Source: Plicaturopsis crispa FD-325 SS-3
Lineage: Eukaryota; Basidiomycota; Agaricomycetes; Amylocorticiales; Amylocorticiaceae
DNA: 64,000 bases
Assembly (NCBI GenBank): GCA_000827205.1
Contig: KN832561.1
Location: forward strand, 97,170 to 161,169
Direction: 5' to 3'
The notes under the pieces were generated by a model. That model did not search any database. It had not been told where the DNA came from and worked only from the letters and a program-made list of their open reading frames with translations. Positions 1 through 23,210 of this stretch are shown piece after piece (the first letter of the stretch is position 1; every line of letters begins with the position of its first letter). The position numbers and the translations under genes are program-made.

Positions 1-945
1 GCCGAGATGAAGACCGCCGTACGGAGCAGAGCCACAGGAGATCGAGAGACCAAAGCGAGGGACCAGGGCAGACTCGCGGGAAAAAGACGGTCGAAAGCAG
101 CCACGGCGACGGTCGAGCCGATCGGAAAAGAAAAAAAAGTCAGAGATGCGAGCGCCACAGTCACCCGCTTAGTCCAAGTCGCTGGTACCGGGTGGTGAAT
201 GCGGACGTGATGAGGCTCGGGTTGACGCCACAGAAAAAGGATCGTTGAATAGGCCACGAGTAGCGACGCCAGAGTACTCAAGTGATGAAGAAAACCAGTG
301 TGGCGTACCGGGTGCAGTTGAACGAGGGCTAGTCTTGATGTGCGAAACAGAGTAATCGAGAGGCAGGATCGAGTCCCAGGTAGTACGCCACAGGACGTGA
401 CAAGACTTGGAGTGAGGGGGGGGGGGACAATGGGGGATGATGGAAGTTGAGAGAGAGAGGTGGAGGCGAAGGTGGACGGCCTTTTATAGTGCCTTTGCTG
501 TGCGACCCTGAGTTCCAAAGCGGGTTGTCCACCTCGTGTTTCTCCAAAGAAGGGGCGATTGTTCAAAGGCCCTCCGATTCCAGTAAATTCGGCGTTTGTC
601 TGACTCGACCGATAAAATCACAATCTGTGGATCCAATTAATTAGCGATATACAAGAGCATGCAATCGAGTCAGACAGAAGCGACAGAAATTTAACCCAGA
701 ACAATAAAAGGGACCTATATGGACCCACATCTGCTGCGACGCCATCAGGCGCCTGCCTTGTATTCTTTCCACTCGACATGTCTACCGGACTAATTTGCTC
801 ACCTGCTGATGAACGTGCCGGCTGCCGATCGATAACAGCAGGGCGTAGGTGCCAATCCGCGGTGTTCAACAGCCGTTGAACAACGTGCTCGCACGACAGA
901 AGCATGGGATATCTCAAAAAGGCAATCGTTGAAGTCGTCCACCAT
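1..945 (-). repeat. Left copy of promoter-bearing dispersed repeat (cut by window edge)
   Basis: Read on the minus strand this segment matches 22256-23210 on the plus strand over nearly its whole length, with scattered substitutions and small indels. It starts with ATGGTGGACGACTTCAACG near 945 and runs off the window at position 1. It contains a TATA-like CTATAAAAGG (complement of about 480-492) followed by a pyrimidine-rich tract, so it may carry a pol II promoter. No open frame in it resembles a known family. It could be the terminal part of a mobile element or a repeated gene start; the family cannot be assigned. Confidence 0.75.
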
Positions 946-1185
946 GGAGGTCGTACATCTGAGCAGTGTTGTAGAGAGAGATTCCGCAGTAATTATGTAT
1001 GTCCCCTTGATAGTCAATGTGTGCAGCATGCCTTCGTAAACACTGGCAGCATGTATACATGGTCCTATCGAGATACTTAATCGAGGTAATAATTCGGAAG
1101 AGATACGGTGCTCGCCGCGAAAGACGCTGATCAAGCAGAATGAAAGTCCAATAGGTCCACGGCCCGTCGAACGCAGAATGCGAGT

Positions 1186-3940
1186 TCAATCTTCTGGAAT
1201 TGGTGCGAACGCTGACACATCACTGTTCATAGACCGGGCTTCCTTGCGTCCGAGGGGACGCACGACAACCACGTCCTGAAGCAGAGGACCACTGGCAAAG
1301 GCCGCGGAAATAGGCCCCGGCTGCATGTCCACCAAAACGAGGCGTGTGAGCGCAGGAAAGGCACGCCTGAAGTACGGGTGCATCGCAACAGTGCTGTCGT
1401 GAAAGCCCACAGCTTGTATAGCCGTCAGGGTCAACGAGCGGCAAGCGGGGAATACGGCGGTTGGCGGTCCCGGGTCAATTAGATTTAGGAAGTTGACCCA
1501 GAACAGGTCGCCCATGGCTGAGAGAGTTAATTCCTGCAGTCCACTAGGATCCAGGGAGGGTTGGAAGATGCGCTCCTCACCAGGAAGATACACTCCGTGG
1601 CATACGTCCGAATTCCCCATCTTCAGCGACGTCAGCGAGCTACCCGCCAGGAGTGTTTGGCTGACAGGCTCGGCGAACGAACAGCACGATATGTTCAGAG
1701 AGCGTAAGCACGGGAACAGCACGGCTCGAGGCTCGACGTTTTCCTCTGCGAGGAGGGCATCGAGGTCCCACGCAAGACCGGTGCACTGCCGGATATCAAG
1801 CGTCTCGAGGCGCGCGGGATTCAGGTTGTGCAGTAACGAGCGAGTGCAGCCCGTGTAGCCTTGTATGCGACAGGAGCGAAGCAATGGGCAACCCTTGAGG
1901 CCGAAGTGTCGTTCCATAGAACCTTGATGGGACCCCAACGCGTTTGCTATATCCGATACAATAATTTCAGCGCTTTCCAGGCATGGAGCGGCGTCCAGCG
2001 CAATGGACCGGGCCATTTGCACGAAGTCCGCGTATGAGGCGGTGATGCTGATATGTCGAGTGCGCACGATCAAGCCTCCGATAAGACGTAGGAATGTGTT
2101 GCTCATGTGGGGAGACGGGATTATGATGGTGGTGTGTTCACCCAGGTCGATGGTCAGCGATAGTTTGAAACCGCGAGAGCGTTCCAACAAAGCGGGCAGC
2201 GCCTTTACACACCGCTTGCGCATGTGCCAAAAGCGGAAGGAGAGGTGCGACCAAAGCAAAGGGATGCCGAGGGTGATGTTTCGCCATCGCTTGCAGACGT
2301 GAGAGAGCACAATTGACGAGGTGACGAAGAACGGGTCTGGTTGGATAACACAGAATTCGAAAATCTCCGCCAGGAGTTCGTTGGCAAGTGAGTGGATACT
2401 GGTAGTACACGTGTCGTTGACTGTTCGCGTTTGTCCGTGAGCCACTATTTTGTAGTCGATATCGCCACTAGGACGACATCGCTTCAGTGCCCCGCCACGC
2501 GCCTGGGCTGAATAAGCAGTGGCAATGGCTTGATCCATTTGCTGCCACTTTTCCAGTCGAGCGATACTCTTCATATCGAGGTCGATGATCGTGACGCGTC
2601 CCGCGGTCGTATCTGCAGCGTCACGAGAGGGGCAGAGTATAATCGAGCAGTCCTTAAACGTCGCAGATAGCAGGTACGCCATGTTATGGTACGCCAACGC
2701 GTTCCTCCGGTACTCCCATCGCTGCATGCGGTCTCGTCGACGCGGACTGAAGTCCAGGCGGAGTTCTACCGCTCGTGCATAGCGCGCAGCCGCATCATTC
2801 GCAGACTTTTCAAGGAAAACAGACTCGTCTTGAGGGGGAGCTCTCCCTTGGCTATGCGATTGCCAAGCGTCCGAAGAGAGGTACACGTCAAGAAAATGTG
2901 TCCACTGTGCCATGGATGGCTCGTCCTGGCTGGAGAAGGTGTTTGGCTTGTTACCGGAAGGGGAATGCTGCCGAACAGCATGCCATAGCTGGTAGAGCCC
3001 CTCGATATCGTGCGCATCCAGAGAGCGCTGGAGGTTGGCAATTGTACGCAAGACAGGGGTGGACATGAGGAGAGGCACAAGTGATTCTACGAATGCATCG
3101 CGAAGGCCGGCCGTGTTGGTAGCGTCACCAGACACGCCAAGTGCGCCACATAATCCTTCAACCTGTACAGCGAATGAGCAGACATCCGGAGGGAGAAGTA
3201 TATATGCTTACGTTTTCCGGAGAGACAACTTTCCCGTGCATAAAAATACGCAGGTTGTTCGCCGAGCCCTCTGTTCGAATCCAGCTATCCCATAGCGCCC
3301 CAACGGCCGCACGCATGCGTTCTGTCGATGTAGAGAACAGATCCAGTGGGCAGTACGTCGTCGGAACACCCTTCGAATGAGCGTGCATGCAAAAGCGACA
3401 TGTTCGCGTTTTGGCGAGAAAAGTTGTAGGCGATAGGTGCTTCGGGTTTGGTAGAAAGGCCCACTTCGGCTGCAGACACGTCAGAGTTTACAAGGAATGA
3501 GAATATGTACTTGGGGGCACCTTAATCTCGATTGCTAAGCTTTCGCCGCCCACTAAATCCGTCGCGAGCACGGCGCTCTTCCTCGTCACATCGATGGATT
3601 GTGCTTGCCGCCTCTCGCCAGGCCTCTCCGCCGAACTATCGTGTACGAACGCGAAACGCTCTAACCATTTCCGATCCAAGGGCACGCTGTCGAGCCGGGG
3701 TAACCACTGAGGATCTACCACGCGTTGTATCACGGAGTGCTGGAATTCAACCGACACGTCCTCGTCCTTGTCCTCATTTGCGCCCGCGGAAGCTTCGTGA
3801 GCAAGCGTTTTGCGCAGCCTGAGCACAGTTCCCGTGAATTGAGGATGCGCCGCGCCCGCGTAAGAGAATACGATGGTGGCGCCACCTTCTGCGACATATT
3901 GCCAGTCAGATGGAGACGTTTTCGTGAGGAGGGCGTCCAT
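1186..3940 (-). CDS. Inositol-pentakisphosphate 2-kinase fused in frame to an F-box/LRR protein
   Basis: Predicted 884 aa in three exons: 3940-3521, 3469-3212 and 3162-1186, with introns of 51 and 49 nt, both phase 0 with GT...AG ends. Residues 1 to about 436 are an IPK1 kinase, which phosphorylates inositol pentakisphosphate to IP6. Family marks are the nucleotide loop EGGATIVFSYAG, EIKPKWAFLP (about 138-147, recreated by splicing intron 1), the zinc-site segment RFCMHAHSKG then YCPLDL (about 165-182), the PLLMSTPVL...LQRSLD stretch and the metal-binding IDLDMK (about 419-424). All appear intact, so the kinase is probably active. With no stop, a linker of about 45 residues leads to an F-box (about 481-530, TSIHSLANELLAEIFEF) and an LRR-like tail to 884, homologous over its length to the neighbour at 4408-5664. 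The frame upstream of 3940 has no ATG. An in-frame ATG at 2538 (Met435) could start a separate F-box protein. Both domain identities are clear; whether one protein is made is inferred. Confidence 0.85.
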
Positions 3941-4407
3941 GGCGAGGGTATTTGGGGGTATTTGAAGAAATGCGCGCACCGGTCAGGACGAATTCAAGCC
4001 AGCCTAGCACAGGCTTGGCCCGGGCTTGGCATCTCTAGACTCTGGTATCATGGTGCTTATGTACAGCGTACTGCCTATACACACTCGCTGTGGAAGGAAC
4101 GGGGAAGACTGTAGACTTCTGTTGAACGGAGAAAGCTAGAAGGAGCGAGGCTACAAAAAGCTAGTGACCACGTTTATTCGGGGAGATCAAGTTGGATTGA
4201 ACGGCCCTGGGCGCTACGGTTTCCACTAACAAAATTTGCTGAGTACATTAGGAAAATATACAAGCTTGAGGGGGTGTCGACTGCAAAATCTCCCCCTCCT
4301 CACTAAACCGATTGTTATAAACCTATCAAGAAAGCGAACACCCAAATGTGTGCAGTAACATGAAATCCTGTACCCAACCCGACGCCCAACATTCTTCGCC
4401 CCAACCG
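3941..4407. other. Intergenic: IPK1-F-box promoter side and 3' flank of F-box gene
   Basis: No open frame of note. Holds the upstream region of the IPK1-F-box gene and the 3' flank of the F-box gene transcribed toward it. No clear TATA box or repeat was seen. Confidence 0.5.
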
Positions 4408-5664
4408 CTACGCACTAGCCCGTACCCAACGCTTTGCCCTGCGACCGACTGGTCCGGAAGTAGGACGTCCATCGCTGGGCACAAATGATACGCCGACCCT
4501 GGCAAACTCGGCCAGGATGGGCGCGGGGTCTATATCGCGCAGCGTAAGATGCGTCACAGAGGGAAATGCAAGCGCGAAACTCTGAGGACTAGCGGCGAGG
4601 GGGAGGGAACGGAAACTGGAGAATGCAAGGGACGTGCACCGAGGGAAGCGCGGCGGTTCGCTCTGGAGGGCGAGGGCAAAGCCCCGCACGCCCTCGTTGA
4701 GTAGACCTGCGATATCGAGTGTTTCCACGGCGCGTGTGTCCACAGAGTCGAAAAAGCGTACAGCCGCATCGACAGTGATTGCGTTGTTGGTTCTGGTCAT
4801 GACTATGCGATGGAGTTTGAGCGACACGAGGGATCCTTCGCTAAGGATAGTCTCGGTTTCCGCGGTCTGCACCCTGAACTTGACACCCTCGGCGTTGAAT
4901 TCGCGTATGCTTGGCAGCGTGACCGTCGGCACGATGTCATTGCCATTTCGGATCCAATTGATCATGGAATGTTTAACCGTCAAATGAGCAAGCGAGGCCG
5001 GGTTGAAACCATCGAAGGTCGGGAGTATATAGCCTTCCAGATGGCACGATGTCATCATGGGCCAGTGGTCCACCTGAAATTCACGTTCTGCAGACGGCAG
5101 CAAGTTGGGCGTCCATCCCAAGACACCAAATTTTACACTCTGCAGCAAAGGAAAGTCACTGGCTTTCATAACCTGGCCTACGATTTCGAAAAATTCTGGC
5201 CAGGCGACGATGCTGAGGTGGCTTAGGCGCCAGAAGGACCCTGGTCCTATAATCGAGATGAACGCCGATACAAGCGCCGTAGATGGCTCGTCGACCACAC
5301 GGAGATTAATGGTAAGCTCGAGACTGCGCGCGCGCGAGCACGCCAGGAACTCCGGCAGCATGGCCAGGCATGGATTGCTGATGTGGGACAAGCGGAACGT
5401 GAGCTTTGTCCACAATTCGGGGAGATCTCTGACCATGCTTCGCCACTTTGCGCAAACGTGTGTCAAGGCGATGGATGATGTGGGGAAACCGTCGTGGTGA
5501 GGCTCCGCCGACAGGTAGAGCTGGAATATCTCGATCAGGATCTCTTTGGCAAGGCTGTCGATGGACGTGGGATGGATAAGGTTCTCAGAGGTGGGCGCGT
5601 CTCGTGGATCATCGACGGAGTCGGTGGACGCGAGGTCGACGGTGTCAGGAAGATGCTCTGACAT
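4408..5664 (-). CDS. F-box and leucine-rich-repeat-like protein
   Basis: A 418-aa single-exon frame with a true ATG at 5664. Residues about 31-80 form an F-box: SIDSLAKEILIEIFQLY, then SSIALTHVCAKWRSM and LPELWTKLTF. The remainder has irregular leucine-rich repeats, as in the F-box families expanded in Agaricomycetes. Proteins of this kind usually join Skp1-cullin-1 ubiquitin ligases through the F-box and bind substrates through the repeats; that role is inferred from family. It is a full-length paralogue of the C-terminal half of the IPK1-F-box gene 0.5 kb downstream in the same orientation, which suggests local tandem duplication. A broken copy of its 5' half and about 270 bp of upstream DNA lies in opposite orientation at 21396-22214. 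Substrate unknown. Confidence 0.85.
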   Translation of the reverse strand: MSEHLPDTVDLASTDSVDDPRDAPTSENLIHPTSIDSLAKEILIEIFQLYLSAEPHHDGFPTSSIALTHVCAKWRSMVRDLPELWTKLTFRLSHISNPCLAMLPEFLACSRARSLELTINLRVVDEPSTALVSAFISIIGPGSFWRLSHLSIVAWPEFFEIVGQVMKASDFPLLQSVKFGVLGWTPNLLPSAEREFQVDHWPMMTSCHLEGYILPTFDGFNPASLAHLTVKHSMINWIRNGNDIVPTVTLPSIREFNAEGVKFRVQTAETETILSEGSLVSLKLHRIVMTRTNNAITVDAAVRFFDSVDTRAVETLDIAGLLNEGVRGFALALQSEPPRFPRCTSLAFSSFRSLPLAASPQSFALAFPSVTHLTLRDIDPAPILAEFARVGVSFVPSDGRPTSGPVGRRAKRWVRASA

Positions 5665-6121
5665 CCTGTTTACTGCTGAAGGGAATGCGGCGGCGATGAG
5701 TCACTAGCACGAATGTCAATAAAGCAGTATCGATAAGTTCTCTGAGTAGACTCACCTAGGAGGGGGATGCAGCGCAGGCTGCGGGCGAACATGGGGGGAC
5801 AACTGTACATATAGGCCACGAAGATCAGATCCCATTGCGCCGCGTGTCACTGACTTGAATGTTTAGCGCCATATACGGAAAATTGGATATGACTTCACTG
5901 AACATGCTGCCTTTGCCGTCATCTTTGCGTATCTTGAGCGGACACGCCGTGGAGCAAGCGAGGCCTGAAAGGAAGAAGTCCGTTTGAAAAAAAGTACATT
6001 GCAGAATGCTACAATCATATGACATGGTAGGCATTGCACGGCTGGAGAAATAACAAGCAGCTCTGACGAAGTCAGCACCCTTAGCGCTAATCCGAGTTCC
6101 TGTAAGAAAGTACCTTGGGCT
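5665..6121. other. Intergenic: F-box gene upstream region, partly duplicated at 21.4 kb
   Basis: About 5665-5950 (complement) matches 21396-21677, so the promoter region of the F-box gene was copied together with its coding start. No gene was seen in the rest. Confidence 0.6.
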
Positions 6122-7221: not shown

Positions 7222-7595
7222 ATACACTGCGGAGGCACCTGCGATGATCTCAATTTCAGAGCTAGAGTCACAACCTCGGAAGACGCACAGTGCGTGTGAT
7301 TCCCTATCGAACAATCGAATCGGCTTGTAGCAAATACAAGAGAGAGTCGCGCAGATGGAAAAGGTAGATGCAGGCTACAGGTGCCAGCGAGATGTGGAGC
7401 CCAAGAACAAGCCAGAAATCAAGACTTCGCCGCGCACGGAGAGAAAGCGGAGAAAAGAAGTTGAAAATGTGCCACGTTGTTCTGCTTTGGCGCGCAAGCC
7501 GGTGCCAAACAACGCTTTACGGTCGGAAGCCGGCCAAATAAATTTCTCGTTTGACAGCATTTCGACCGCGTTTGTTCTCCGTCTTGTCCGTACGG

Positions 7596-9007
7596 ATGTC
7601 TGCTTTGCCAGAACACAAGTCTGGCATACGGACAGTGCTTCAGTATACTGGAATACCCCCATCATGGCTAGATAAACGTCCCAAGCTGCCCTCGCGGAAC
7701 TGGCTCATTTTTCTGTCTGTCACGTCGTCGGTCGTCGGTTACTACGCCTACGATCGCCGCCAGTGCAAGAAGATACGCGACGATTATATCACCCGCGTGA
7801 AGCACTATGCAGATGAGCCGCTACCGAGCATGGCCCTGCCGCGCAAGGTGCGCGTGTATGGGTGCAAATGGCCAGGGGACGAAGACTACGACCAGAGTAT
7901 GAAGTATTTCAGGAAATATGTCAAGGTGCGCCGTGATCTCGTCTTACGCTCTACGCACGCGTACTTACTCCATAATAGCCCATTTTTGTGTCTGCGGCTA
8001 TTGACTATGAGATGGTCAATGGTCGACGTCACGGGGATCTTGCGAATCGAATAGCCGATGAAATAAAAGCTCAGCGCCGGATAGCTGCGGGCATCGACGT
8101 TCCTCCAGAAAGTCTAATGCCTACACTTCCGAGCAACAGCTCTCCGGAGGTGAAGCGACAGCGCGAGCTCGACGGTGGTATCGTTATCGTGGGACGGCCG
8201 GCGTTCAAGGAGTACCTGGCGGGCCTACGGCGGGGGTGGTCAGAGCCTTTGGATAAGGTCGACAGGGAGGAGACACTTGCGGTCTCCCTTAGCGACGACG
8301 GGCGTTTTGACGAAGTTGACGATCCAAACACAAGCGAGCTTGGCGGTGAGCCCATACCGACTCCCTCGAGGCTAGCAGCGTATTCTCCGCTTCGACGGCC
8401 AGAACCCCCACGCGCTGCACCTCCCTCCGCCATTCCGGCCTCGTTGAATGAGCCACCATCATCTATCCCGCAACAACCCCCGCTCCTCCTTGTCTCCTTC
8501 ACAGACCTCATCGGCTTCACGCAGATCCCGCTCATGCTATGGGACTTCTTTAACCAACGGCACAAAGTGCGTTCCGGTGCAGAGGCTGCGTACCGCCTCG
8601 TAGAGAAGTCCACGCGGCCCATTGACGCATCCACCGACCTCGACTTCAGCGTGGAGTCCGAGGCGTACTACAAGAGCTCCCTCGCATCGACGGCTGAGGA
8701 CATCGAATCTGCGCGCACAAAATACTACGACGCGCTCCCGGCAAAACTCGAGACCGCGCGCGCGCTTGCTAGGCGGACACGTGAACCTACGAAAGACGAG
8801 GAGTCGCACCCTCCTCCTACGGAAGTAGAACTGCGTGCAGAGCGCCTGAAGAAGGAGCTGCGGTGGCGGGGAGATCTCGAGGGCTGGAGTATCGTGAAGC
8901 CGGACGCGCCGGTCTCGTGGGATGAACGGTTCAGAGATTCCTTACGCGTATTTGTCGATCCGCCCTCGCAGTCGAGCGATGGCTGGAAAAAGGACGCAGA
9001 GCCTTAG
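7596..9007 (+). CDS. TIM54: Mitochondrial inner-membrane translocase subunit Tim54
   Basis: Predicted 452 aa from exons 7596-7925 and 7979-9007, separated by a 53-nt phase-0 intron (gtgcgc...aatag) that restores YFRKYVK-PIFVSAAIDYE. Tim54 is a subunit of the TIM22 complex, which inserts carrier proteins into the mitochondrial inner membrane. Family marks are the N-terminal GIPPSWLDKRPKLPSRNW, a single membrane segment right after it (about 32-50, WLIFLSVTSSVVGYYAY), the NGRRHGDLANRIADEIK block and GGIVIVGRPAFKEYLAGLRRG. A second, weaker hydrophobic stretch lies near residues 265-290, and residues about 200-265 are Pro/Ser-rich. Length is close to yeast Tim54 (about 478 aa). In-frame sequence upstream of 7596 has another ATG at 7551, but the conserved part starts well inside either choice. 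Confidence 0.93.
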
Positions 9008-20841: not shown

Positions 20842-21395
20842 TCGCCGTCGACGTTGGGGACAGAAGACGCGTGTCTTTCTTGAGAGGACCTTCGCGGTGA
20901 GTCAGTTTTCATCCAATCATTAGTCAGAAATGCGCAAACCAAAGCCAAAGTCTTACAACGACTAGGGATCTTGTTTCCGTACAGTCTGCGACGAGGCGAG
21001 AGCACGGCAGACAAGCAGACAGCACTTCGGTGGTGGTGGCGGCGGTGGTAGAGGAATGAACGAACACTTCACTCAGCGCCTGGTGAGGCTTGAGCGCTGC
21101 CGCGGGGGAAATTGAGTTCGGCGCGTATTCTGAACTCCGCGACGCCTTCAGGCAAAAGCTGCGACCCTCAGCTTTACCTTATTGTTTCTGCGTTCACTCT
21201 GTAGCACTCAGAGGGGGTATCCTAGCCGCGTCTCCCTTCGATGTGAGTACATTCCGGTGCGTGCGACGCAATGTGCATATAGTTTACGAATTTGACCGCG
21301 AGTCCCCAACTCAAAAAACAGTCAAACAGCGCGAGGTTTTCTACGGGAATTTTGGGTTGCCTTCCTTGCTCTATCCGGTGAGCCCTATCTCCACG
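20842..21395. other. Upstream region of the M16 peptidase gene
   Basis: Holds the 5' flank of the insulysin gene. No conserved open frame. The next homology, the duplicated F-box block, begins at about 21396. Confidence 0.45.
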
Positions 21396-22235
21396 TCGCG
21401 TCCACTTAAAATCCGCAGAATTGACAACAAAGGCAGCATGTCCAGTGAAATCATATTCGGGGGGTTTCCGTATATGGCGCAAAAGATTTATGCCAGTGAC
21501 ACATGGCGCAATGGGATTTAATTATCGTGGCCTATATGTATAGGTATCCCCCATGTTCGCCCGCAGTTTGCTCTGCAACCCCTCCTGTGAGTTTCTTCAC
21601 AGATTTTATCGGTTCTGCATTATTGGCATCCGTGCTAGTAGCTCATCGACACCACATTCCGTCCAGCAGTAAACAGGATGACAGACCATCTTCCTGACAC
21701 CGTCGACCTCGCGTCCACCGACTCCGTCGATGATCCACGCGCCCACCTCTGAGAACCCCATCCATCCCACGTCCATCGACAGCCTTGCCAAAGAAATCCT
21801 GATCGAGATATTCCAGCTGTATCTGTCGGCGGAGCCTCACCACGACGGTTTCCCCACATCGTCCATTGCCTTGACACACGTTTGCGCAAAGTGACGAAGC
21901 ATAGTCAGGGATTTCCCCGACTTGTGGACGAAACTCACGTTCCGCTTGTCCCACATCAGCAAACTATGCCTAGCCATGCTGCCGGAGCTCCTGGCGTGCT
22001 CGCGCGCGCAGTCTCGAGCTTACCATCAATCGCCGTGTGGTCGAAGAGCCCTCTACGGCGCTTGTATTAGCGTTCATCTCGACTATAGGACCAGAGTCCT
22101 TCTGGCGCCTAACCCACCTCAGCATCGTCGCCTCGCCAGAATTCGTCGAAATCATTGACCAGGTTATGAGAGCCAGTGAATTTCCTTTGCTCCAGATTGT
22201 AAAACTTGGTGTCTGCAAATTTTGCCAGCGGTAAA
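21396..22235 (+). pseudogene. Truncated, frameshifted copy of the F-box gene with its upstream region
   Basis: From about 21396 to 22214 this matches the complement of the F-box gene and its promoter side (about 5130-5950). The start ATG is at 21678 (MTDHLPDTVDLASTDSVDD). A 5-nt deletion after GATGATCCACG shifts the frame, a TGG codon in the CAKW motif has become TGA, and homology stops about 180 codons in, after CTTGGTGTCT. About 40 nt of unrelated sequence then leads into the repeat at 22256. It cannot make the full F-box protein. Divergence is modest, so the copy is not ancient. Confidence 0.88.
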
Positions 22236-22255
22236 ATCGCAGCCTTCCTCAATAA

Positions 22256-23210
22256 TGGTGGACGAATTCAACGATTGCCTTTTCGAGATATCCCGTGCTT
22301 CTGTCGACTCACACGAACGCGAGCACGTTGTTACAACGTTGTTTAGCACCGTGAACTGGCATCTACGCCTTGCCGTCAACACACAGCAGCTGCTATGTTT
22401 CTCAACAGGTGAGCAACCTCGTCCGGTAGATATGTTGAGTAGAAATAATACAAGGCGGACGTCTGATGTGCTCGCGTAGATATGGGTCCATATAGGTCCC
22501 TTTTTATTGTTCTGGGTAAATTTCTGTCGCTTCTGTCTGACTCGATTGCACGCTCTTGTATATCGCTAATTAATTGGATCCATAGATTGATTCCATCGGT
22601 CGAGTCAGACAAACGCCGAATTTACTGGAAATCGGGGGGCCTTTGAACAATCGCCTTCTTTCTTTGGAAAAACACGAGGTGGACACTCCGCTTTGGAATT
22701 CAGGGTCGCACAGCACAGGCACTTTAAAAGGCCTTTCACCCTCGCCTTCACTTTTCTCTCTCAACTTCCACCATCCCCCATCCTCCTTCCCCCTCATTCT
22801 TGTCACCTCGTGGCGTACTCCGCACTTGGTCCTATCTCTCGATAACTCTGTCTCGCACATCAAGACTATCCGTCGTTAGACCACACCCGGTGCGCCACCC
22901 TGGATCTCTGCAGCACTCCAGTGCTCTGGTGTCGCCACTCGTGGCCACTTCAACGATCCTTTTTCTGTGGCGTCAACCCGGGCCTCATCAAGTCCGCATT
23001 CACTACCCGGTACCAGCGACTTGGACTAAGCGGGTGACTGTGGCGCTCGCATCTCTGACTTCTTTTTCTTTTCCGATTGGCTCGACCGTCGCCGTGGCTG
23101 CTTTCGACCGTCTTTTTCCCTGCCGAGGCTGCCCTGGTCCCTCGCTTTGGTCTCTCGATCTCCTGTGGCTCTGCTCCCGTACGGCGGTCTTTCATCTCGG
23201 CAACTGTCCT
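22256..23210 (+). repeat. Right copy of promoter-bearing dispersed repeat
   Basis: Matches the complement of 1-945. It carries the same AATTAATTGGATCC stretch, the GCGTTTGTCTGACTCGA-type motif and, in place of the TATA-like box, CTTTAAAAGG at about 22723-22732, followed by the pyrimidine tract and CGCACATCAAGACTA. It continues without a break into the intron-rich locus downstream, so the repeat may be that locus's promoter and first exon. No coding similarity to a known mobile element was seen. Confidence 0.75.

Follow-up and report, generated by a model that had tools for sequence, protein, structure and literature searches.

In-Frame Joining of IPK1 and an F-Box/LRR-Like Protein in Three Gene Copies of Plicaturopsis crispa

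Introduction

Domain fusions often reveal functional partners. A minus-strand gene at 1186..3940 in a 64,000-nucleotide stretch of the Plicaturopsis crispa FD-325 SS-3 genome (the window) raises the question of whether an IP5 2-kinase (IPK1) and an F-box/LRR-like protein are made there as one polypeptide and, if so, what their joining could do. IPK1 makes IP6, and F-box proteins belong to the machinery with which cells dispose of proteins; the two systems are known to affect one another, and such a fusion would link them. A sequence-only reading of the locus had proposed a ligase that carries its own source of IP6, and we consider that proposal here together with its rivals.

Structure of the Gene

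The gene (copy A) has its start ATG at 3940 and its stop codon at 1186-1188 and encodes 884 amino acids with a computed mass of 97.8 kDa. Exon 1 (3521..3940; all features on the minus strand) encodes aa 1-140, from EGGATIVFSYAG to EIK, and is followed by intron 1 (3470..3520; GT..AG, 51 bp). Exon 2 (3212..3469) encodes aa 141-226, including PKW, CMHAHSKG, and NN, and is separated by intron 2 (3163..3211; GT..AG, 49 bp) from exon 3 (1186..3162), which holds the C-terminal half of the kinase, the linker, and the entire F-box/LRR part. The open reading frame at 1186-3207, which takes in the C-terminal end of the kinase together with the F-box/LRR part, stays open for 673 codons. This three-exon model is identical to the deposited P. 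crispa protein PLICRDRAFT_175759 (P0001), bearing out the earlier description of a single stop-free frame that leads from a complete kinase into an F-box/LRR-like part.

The Ins_P5_2-kin domain (PF06090) covers aa 15-437 (2530..3898, introns included; E 6e-91). A linker of 25 codons with neither Met nor stop (aa 456-480; 2401..2475) starts right after a KRC motif and leads into the F-box (aa 481-536; 2233..2400), which is followed by an LRR-like region with weak matches (aa 537-884; 1189..2232). The spacing of about 45 codons previously estimated between the kinase and the F-box part corresponds to the interval from aa 437 to about 484.

Several features surround the gene. An inverted partial copy of window positions 1-945 and 5121-5954 lies at 21389..23201 on the plus strand (86-87% identical), in which only 40 bp replace 946-5120, so that it lacks the fusion gene together with the 3' portion of the neighboring F-box gene N. 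Two overlapping open frames at window 7542-9007 (plus strand) presumably resemble mitochondrial TIM54. Outside the window, toward the two further gene copies described below, two long open frames (L017 1522-8060, minus strand; contig C8, ∼86.4-93.0 kb) lie between those copies and the window; we take them to be similar to the gag and pol genes of a Ty3/gypsy-type retrotransposon, and the pieces that flank them (L017 583-1164 and 8742-9329) to be one aminotransferase-like gene.

Two Further Copies on the Same Contig

Copy A (C8:98.4-101.1 kb) is accompanied on the same contig by two intact fusions about 18 and 15 kb away, copy B (871 aa; C8:77.1-79.9 kb; L016 1645-4372, minus strand) and copy C (876 aa; C8:80.7-83.4 kb). 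The model of copy C equals the deposited protein PLICRDRAFT_698563 (P0002), and this protein and PLICRDRAFT_175759 are both deposited as hypothetical proteins. Both intron positions are identical in the three copies. Intron 1 of copy C (L016 7409-7477; 69 bp) begins with a GC donor (GCGAGT) and contains no in-frame stop, so that a transcript retaining it would encode 23 extra residues and stay in frame. The IPK1 frame runs directly into an F-box/LRR-like frame in all three copies, and the fusion is thus a real gene family.

A search of the 33.2-Mb assembly with the IPK1 half placed all seven matching pieces within loci A, B, and C, as did a Pfam IPK1 profile search for all six of its pieces (all candidates scored in both). 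Neither the sequence nor the profile search found an unfused IPK1 in the assembly. An annotation or frame artefact is ruled out by the identity of the model with the deposited protein and by two diverged copies that repeat the fusion. An assembly artefact is unlikely given three separate loci; a run of 1663 N (L018 1108-2770) adjoins the first base of the window on its left, outside the fusion gene.

Anatomy of the Junction

Unfused IPK1s extend over a median of 42 residues from IDLD to their C-terminus (range 22-106 in 115 proteins), and the tail pattern [KR]..C.D/A occurs in 88 of these 115. The P. crispa fusions retain KRC at the place aligned with this C-terminal tail; the D after the tail Cys is missing, so that the fusions would not match the full pattern. 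We read this as a complete kinase joined near its former stop. None of the three copies has a stop in the kinase frame where one half passes into the other, and the stops in all frames that mark read-through in the sense of PMC4503453 are therefore not seen here.

A Met codon between KRC and the F-box is likewise absent from all three copies, in keeping with the earlier suggestion of an F-box that lacks its own start, and a separate F-box start at this place is rejected. The nearest upstream Met is Met435 in copy A (the in-frame ATG at 2538 that had been pointed out before) and the aligned Met441 in copy C; copy B has Leu at this place and its nearest Met is Met454. The linker was also inspected for a splice that would end the kinase, as the sequence-only reading had asked. 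Copies A and B have no intron candidate there, and the single lenient candidate of copy C (100 bp) would remove aa 448-481 and shift the frame.

Gene models of other fungi provide a point of reference. IPK1 models of Tephrocybe (P0005) and Tricholoma (P0019) are joined to an acyl-CoA dehydrogenase and lack the Cys-bearing tail where the two parts meet, as one would expect if splicing over the stop had been predicted; they are probably merged neighbor genes, and such merging counts against the fusion reading. The P. crispa fusions keep KRC and have no intron at the join, a difference that is a contrast and not a proof. The shared acyl-CoA dehydrogenase partner of Tephrocybe and Tricholoma hints at a conserved gene order. 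Further IPK1 fusion models involve a transporter (P0017) and a GATA domain (P0049), and all four proteins were left out of the conserved-position, tail-length, and tree counts.

These observations bear on whether the cell might instead hold two proteins, arising from separate transcripts, internal initiation, or cleavage. Met435 (A), Met441 (C), or Met454 (B) could start an F-box product, and the IPK1 merges of other species look like annotation errors. However, the Met of A and C is Leu in B, no copy has a Met beyond KRC from which the F-box could start, and KRC is kept without an intron, unlike the tail-less joins of P0005 and P0019. We consider two separate products highly improbable, and one polypeptide is very probably the architecture of this family.

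Conservation of the Kinase Half

All three copies match the Ins_P5_2-kin profile over its full length, with 306 bits for A (profile 1-374 of 375), 273.7 for B (1-375), and 279.7 for C (1-374) at a cut-off of 22.7. As a finer reference, we used 92 columns conserved in at least 95% of 117 unfused IPK1s. Copy A keeps 90 of these positions, copy C 86, and copy B 84; among the unfused proteins, 45 of 117 differ at none, 33 at one, and 3 at more than eight. Copies B and C thus deviate at 8 and 6 of 92 positions, above nearly all unfused IPK1s, which counts against the fusion reading, whereas the kinase of copy A looks active by its conserved residues.

The changes in copy B include N214T in the NN motif, D185G in PLDLF, and D425E in IDLD, residues whose roles we assume to be those of their counterparts in the plant enzyme. 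Judged by these substitutions, the kinase of copy B may be altered. Copy B, with its changed conserved motifs, also has no deposited protein among the matches listed in the protein searches, and it may be a diverging copy or one of altered activity.

The F-Box/LRR-Like Half and Its Relatives

The F-box-like profile (PF12937, cut-off 24.3) gives 20.6 bits at aa 488-536 of copy A, 24.4 for copy B, and 26.1 for copy C, so that A falls below the cut-off, B passes only just, and C lies above it. The LRR-like region is weaker still: LRR_At5g56370 reaches 21.3 bits in copy A (cut-off 27), and profile A2 matches PDB LRR chains at E 0.061-0.26 and SKP2 at a nonsignificant E 0.16. The sub-threshold F-box and weak LRR match of copy A count against the fusion reading.

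Gene N (P0124, 418 aa; 4411..5664, minus strand), just upstream of the fusion, is an unfused F-box homologue with an F-box-like score of 23.9 bits, just below the cut-off. Among unfused proteins it comes closest to the F-box half (30-33% identical), which agrees with the homology to the next gene claimed for this half. Outside the P. crispa genome, the scoring of 8000 candidates yielded distant relatives only, the best of them at E 8.6e-8. Of 330 F-box-like candidates in the genome, 150 were scored, which gave at least 146 matches, among them B, C, and N; the F-box of copy A is not one of them. Two matches to the SKP1 domain were found in the genome, and a CSN2-like gene carries the motif GFKALKQ, whose lysine we take to correspond to human CSN2 K70. 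Human CSN2 K70 is named in a published account (PMC12954528).

The composition of this half is relevant to a receptor of the TIR1/COI1 kind, in which the LRR would hold IP6 as a cofactor loaded by the attached kinase. An F-box followed by an LRR-like region, the IP6 described in TIR1 (PMC12954528), and 14 K/R positions common to the three copies after residue 483 are consistent with this idea. Against it are the weak LRR matches and the lack of a clear basic excess in the LRR-like region, where K+R versus D+E residues number 34/36 in A, 32/42 in B, and 43/40 in C. We regard such a receptor as improbable. The proposal of a ligase with its own IP6 source therefore holds in part, as the fused frame and the local F-box homologue are present, but the TIR1/COI1-like cofactor role receives no clear backing from the basic residues of the LRR.

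Age and Constraint

Silent divergence and pN/pS were obtained by Nei-Gojobori counts, with the kinase half, the F-box half, and 23 linker codons treated apart. Copies A and B differ by a dS of 1.77 in the kinase half and 1.91 in the F-box half, A and C by 1.68 and 1.95, and B and C by 0.77 and 0.69. The two halves are thus of like relative age, as would be expected for duplication of an already fused gene, and the near-saturated dS (1.7-1.95) of A versus B/C, over which the frame has been kept, indicates that the junction-spanning frame is long-lasting. A FastTree phylogeny of 120 kinases, 117 of them unfused, groups A, B, and C together with a support of 1.0 and a stem of 0.71; within this clade B and C are sisters. 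The branches of B and C are longer, with root-to-tip distances of 1.43 and 1.49 against 1.15 for A under midpoint rooting.

Changes that alter the amino acid are fewer per site than silent changes in both halves of all three copies (pN/pS 0.34-0.39 in the kinase half, 0.45-0.48 in the F-box half). The linker is weakly constrained (0.64-0.99 over 23 codons), and its lengths of 25, 20, and 20 codons in A, B, and C imply that indels occurred, with a net change of whole codons. When linker drift was simulated (20,000 runs of free drift, with branch lengths below the observed A-B dS), 2.8% of runs at 0.03 and 1.7% at 0.1 indels per substitution left the linkers of B and C both free of stops and in the same frame as A. 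This share rose to 18% without indels, a figure that counts against the fusion reading.

Two alternatives take up these patterns. F-box proteins undergo auto-ubiquitination, and the F-box half could be mainly a turnover device by which an SCF-bound kinase would be auto-ubiquitinated and IP6 output would track SCF activity, with no special IP6 role for the LRR-like part. The linkage of all IPK1 pieces located in the assembly to an F-box and the faster change of the F-box halves (by the pN/pS values above) would suit a turnover device, but the LRR-like part belongs to the constrained half (F-box and LRR counted together), and a simple degron could do without it. We find this rather unlikely, though less so than the second alternative, in which an ordinary IPK1 and an independent F-box half are joined without function and the fusion is merely tolerated. 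Such neutrality would fit the frequent read-through reported for P. crispa (PMC4503453), the weakly conserved linker, and the branches of B and C that are longer than that of A. It is hard to square with halves that all three copies have kept whole and in one frame while dS between A and B/C approached saturation, or with the lack of any separate IPK1/F-box pair among the loci found in the assembly, and we judge it unlikely.

Distribution among Other Species

Only two IPK1-F-box fusions, both from P. crispa, are present among the 120 homologues listed of 266 (7999 candidates scored), so the fusion is not seen as a common fungal trait among these matches. The unfused proteins leave little room for one: the stretch that begins with IDLD and runs to the C-terminus has at most 106 residues in 115 of 117, and the remaining two, P0099 (441 aa) and P0106 (426 aa), are too short for such a fusion. 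Labels alone could miss other fusions, as P0001 itself has no F-box label in the match table. A protein search with 21 matches (8000 scored) likewise showed no F-box fusion in its remaining members.

Close relatives with two separate genes had been named as evidence that would speak against the fusion. The two nearest relatives, within the same genome, are fused too, and the IPK1s of other species among the matches listed are unfused. P. crispa belongs to the Amylocorticiales, and no other member of this order was recognised among the matches listed. Our literature search, which also covered fungi, basidiomycete F-box kinase fusions, and P. crispa F-box proteins, found no description of an IPK1-F-box fusion among the papers listed, in line with the earlier remark that no description of the architecture was known to the reader. 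Both component families are known; their combination is new to us.

Origin and Possible Mechanism

We infer that the simplest route to the fusion is a same-strand IPK1/F-box pair that lost a stop. The two neighboring genes would have been co-transcribed, the IPK1 stop and the F-box start would have been lost, turning read-through into fusion, and the fused gene would have been duplicated afterwards. Co-transcription at the origin is suggested by the abundance of read-through transcripts in P. crispa, called a white-rot fungus in a study that produced deep long-read RNA data from it and reported that read-through transcripts involve 717 (7.9%) of the 9,073 loci transcribed, with tandem duplicates enriched (PMC4503453). 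If real, the fusion is a lasting protein fusion in a species with widespread read-through transcripts.

The mechanism we favor is an SCF-tethered IP6 synthase. The F-box would bind SKP1 and thereby put the enzyme on CUL1-based SCF ligases, the kinase would make IP6 where it is needed as glue between the cullin and the COP9 signalosome, and kinase abundance would be coupled to SCF turnover. Mammalian IP5K, the counterpart of IPK1, is reported to interact with CRL-CSN and to bind the cullin, and CSN is described as glued to CRLs by IP6 (PMC6722667, PMC12954528). By analogy, the P. crispa fusion would be a covalent form of the mammalian IP5K-cullin association, and the IP5K/CRL-CSN link appears better founded than a TIR1/COI1-like cofactor role. 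As IP6 is a small molecule that diffuses, where it is made may be of no consequence.

The one-polypeptide family taken together with the SCF-tethered mechanism is a tentative proposal, to which we give slightly less than an even chance. A stronger version, in which all IP6 synthases found in the assembly are parts of SCF receptors, so that the ligase itself is the site of IP6 production and ubiquitination forms a single unit with inositol-phosphate signalling, is possible but distinctly more doubtful. With IP6 synthesis tied to a likely SCF component and no free IPK1 found, P. crispa would offer a natural test of local IP6 for cullin control.

Comparison with Known Systems

The fusion resembles TIR1 and COI1 in a putative F-box/LRR-like architecture with a connection to IP6. 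In TIR1, IP6 is described as a bound cofactor of the receptor (PMC12954528), whereas an IP6 pocket in the P. crispa fusion is hypothetical. SKP2-like FBXL receptors resemble it in the order of an F-box-like domain and an LRR-like region, although the SKP2 profile match is not significant as noted above, and the P. crispa protein differs in carrying an enzyme domain of about 455 aa before the F-box.

Fungal IPK1 (PF06090), represented by ThIPK1 of Trametes hirsuta (PMC12421882) and by chain 5xu6, is like the P. crispa kinase half in its full-length domain, its conserved motifs, and the K/R..C of its tail. P. crispa differs by the C-terminal F-box/LRR-like part, by having three copies, and by the lack of an unfused copy among those found in the assembly, and its fusions lack the D usually found after the tail Cys. 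A 2025 study of T. hirsuta, a white-rot fungus, reported that IPK1 regulates enzymes that degrade lignocellulose (PMC12421882), a role that offers, by analogy, a possible physiological frame for the P. crispa fusion. The likeness to mammalian IP5K lies in the same enzyme activity being associated with cullin ligases (PMC6722667). As that review describes it, the mammalian association is noncovalent and runs through the cullin; in P. crispa it would be covalent and presumably made through SKP1.
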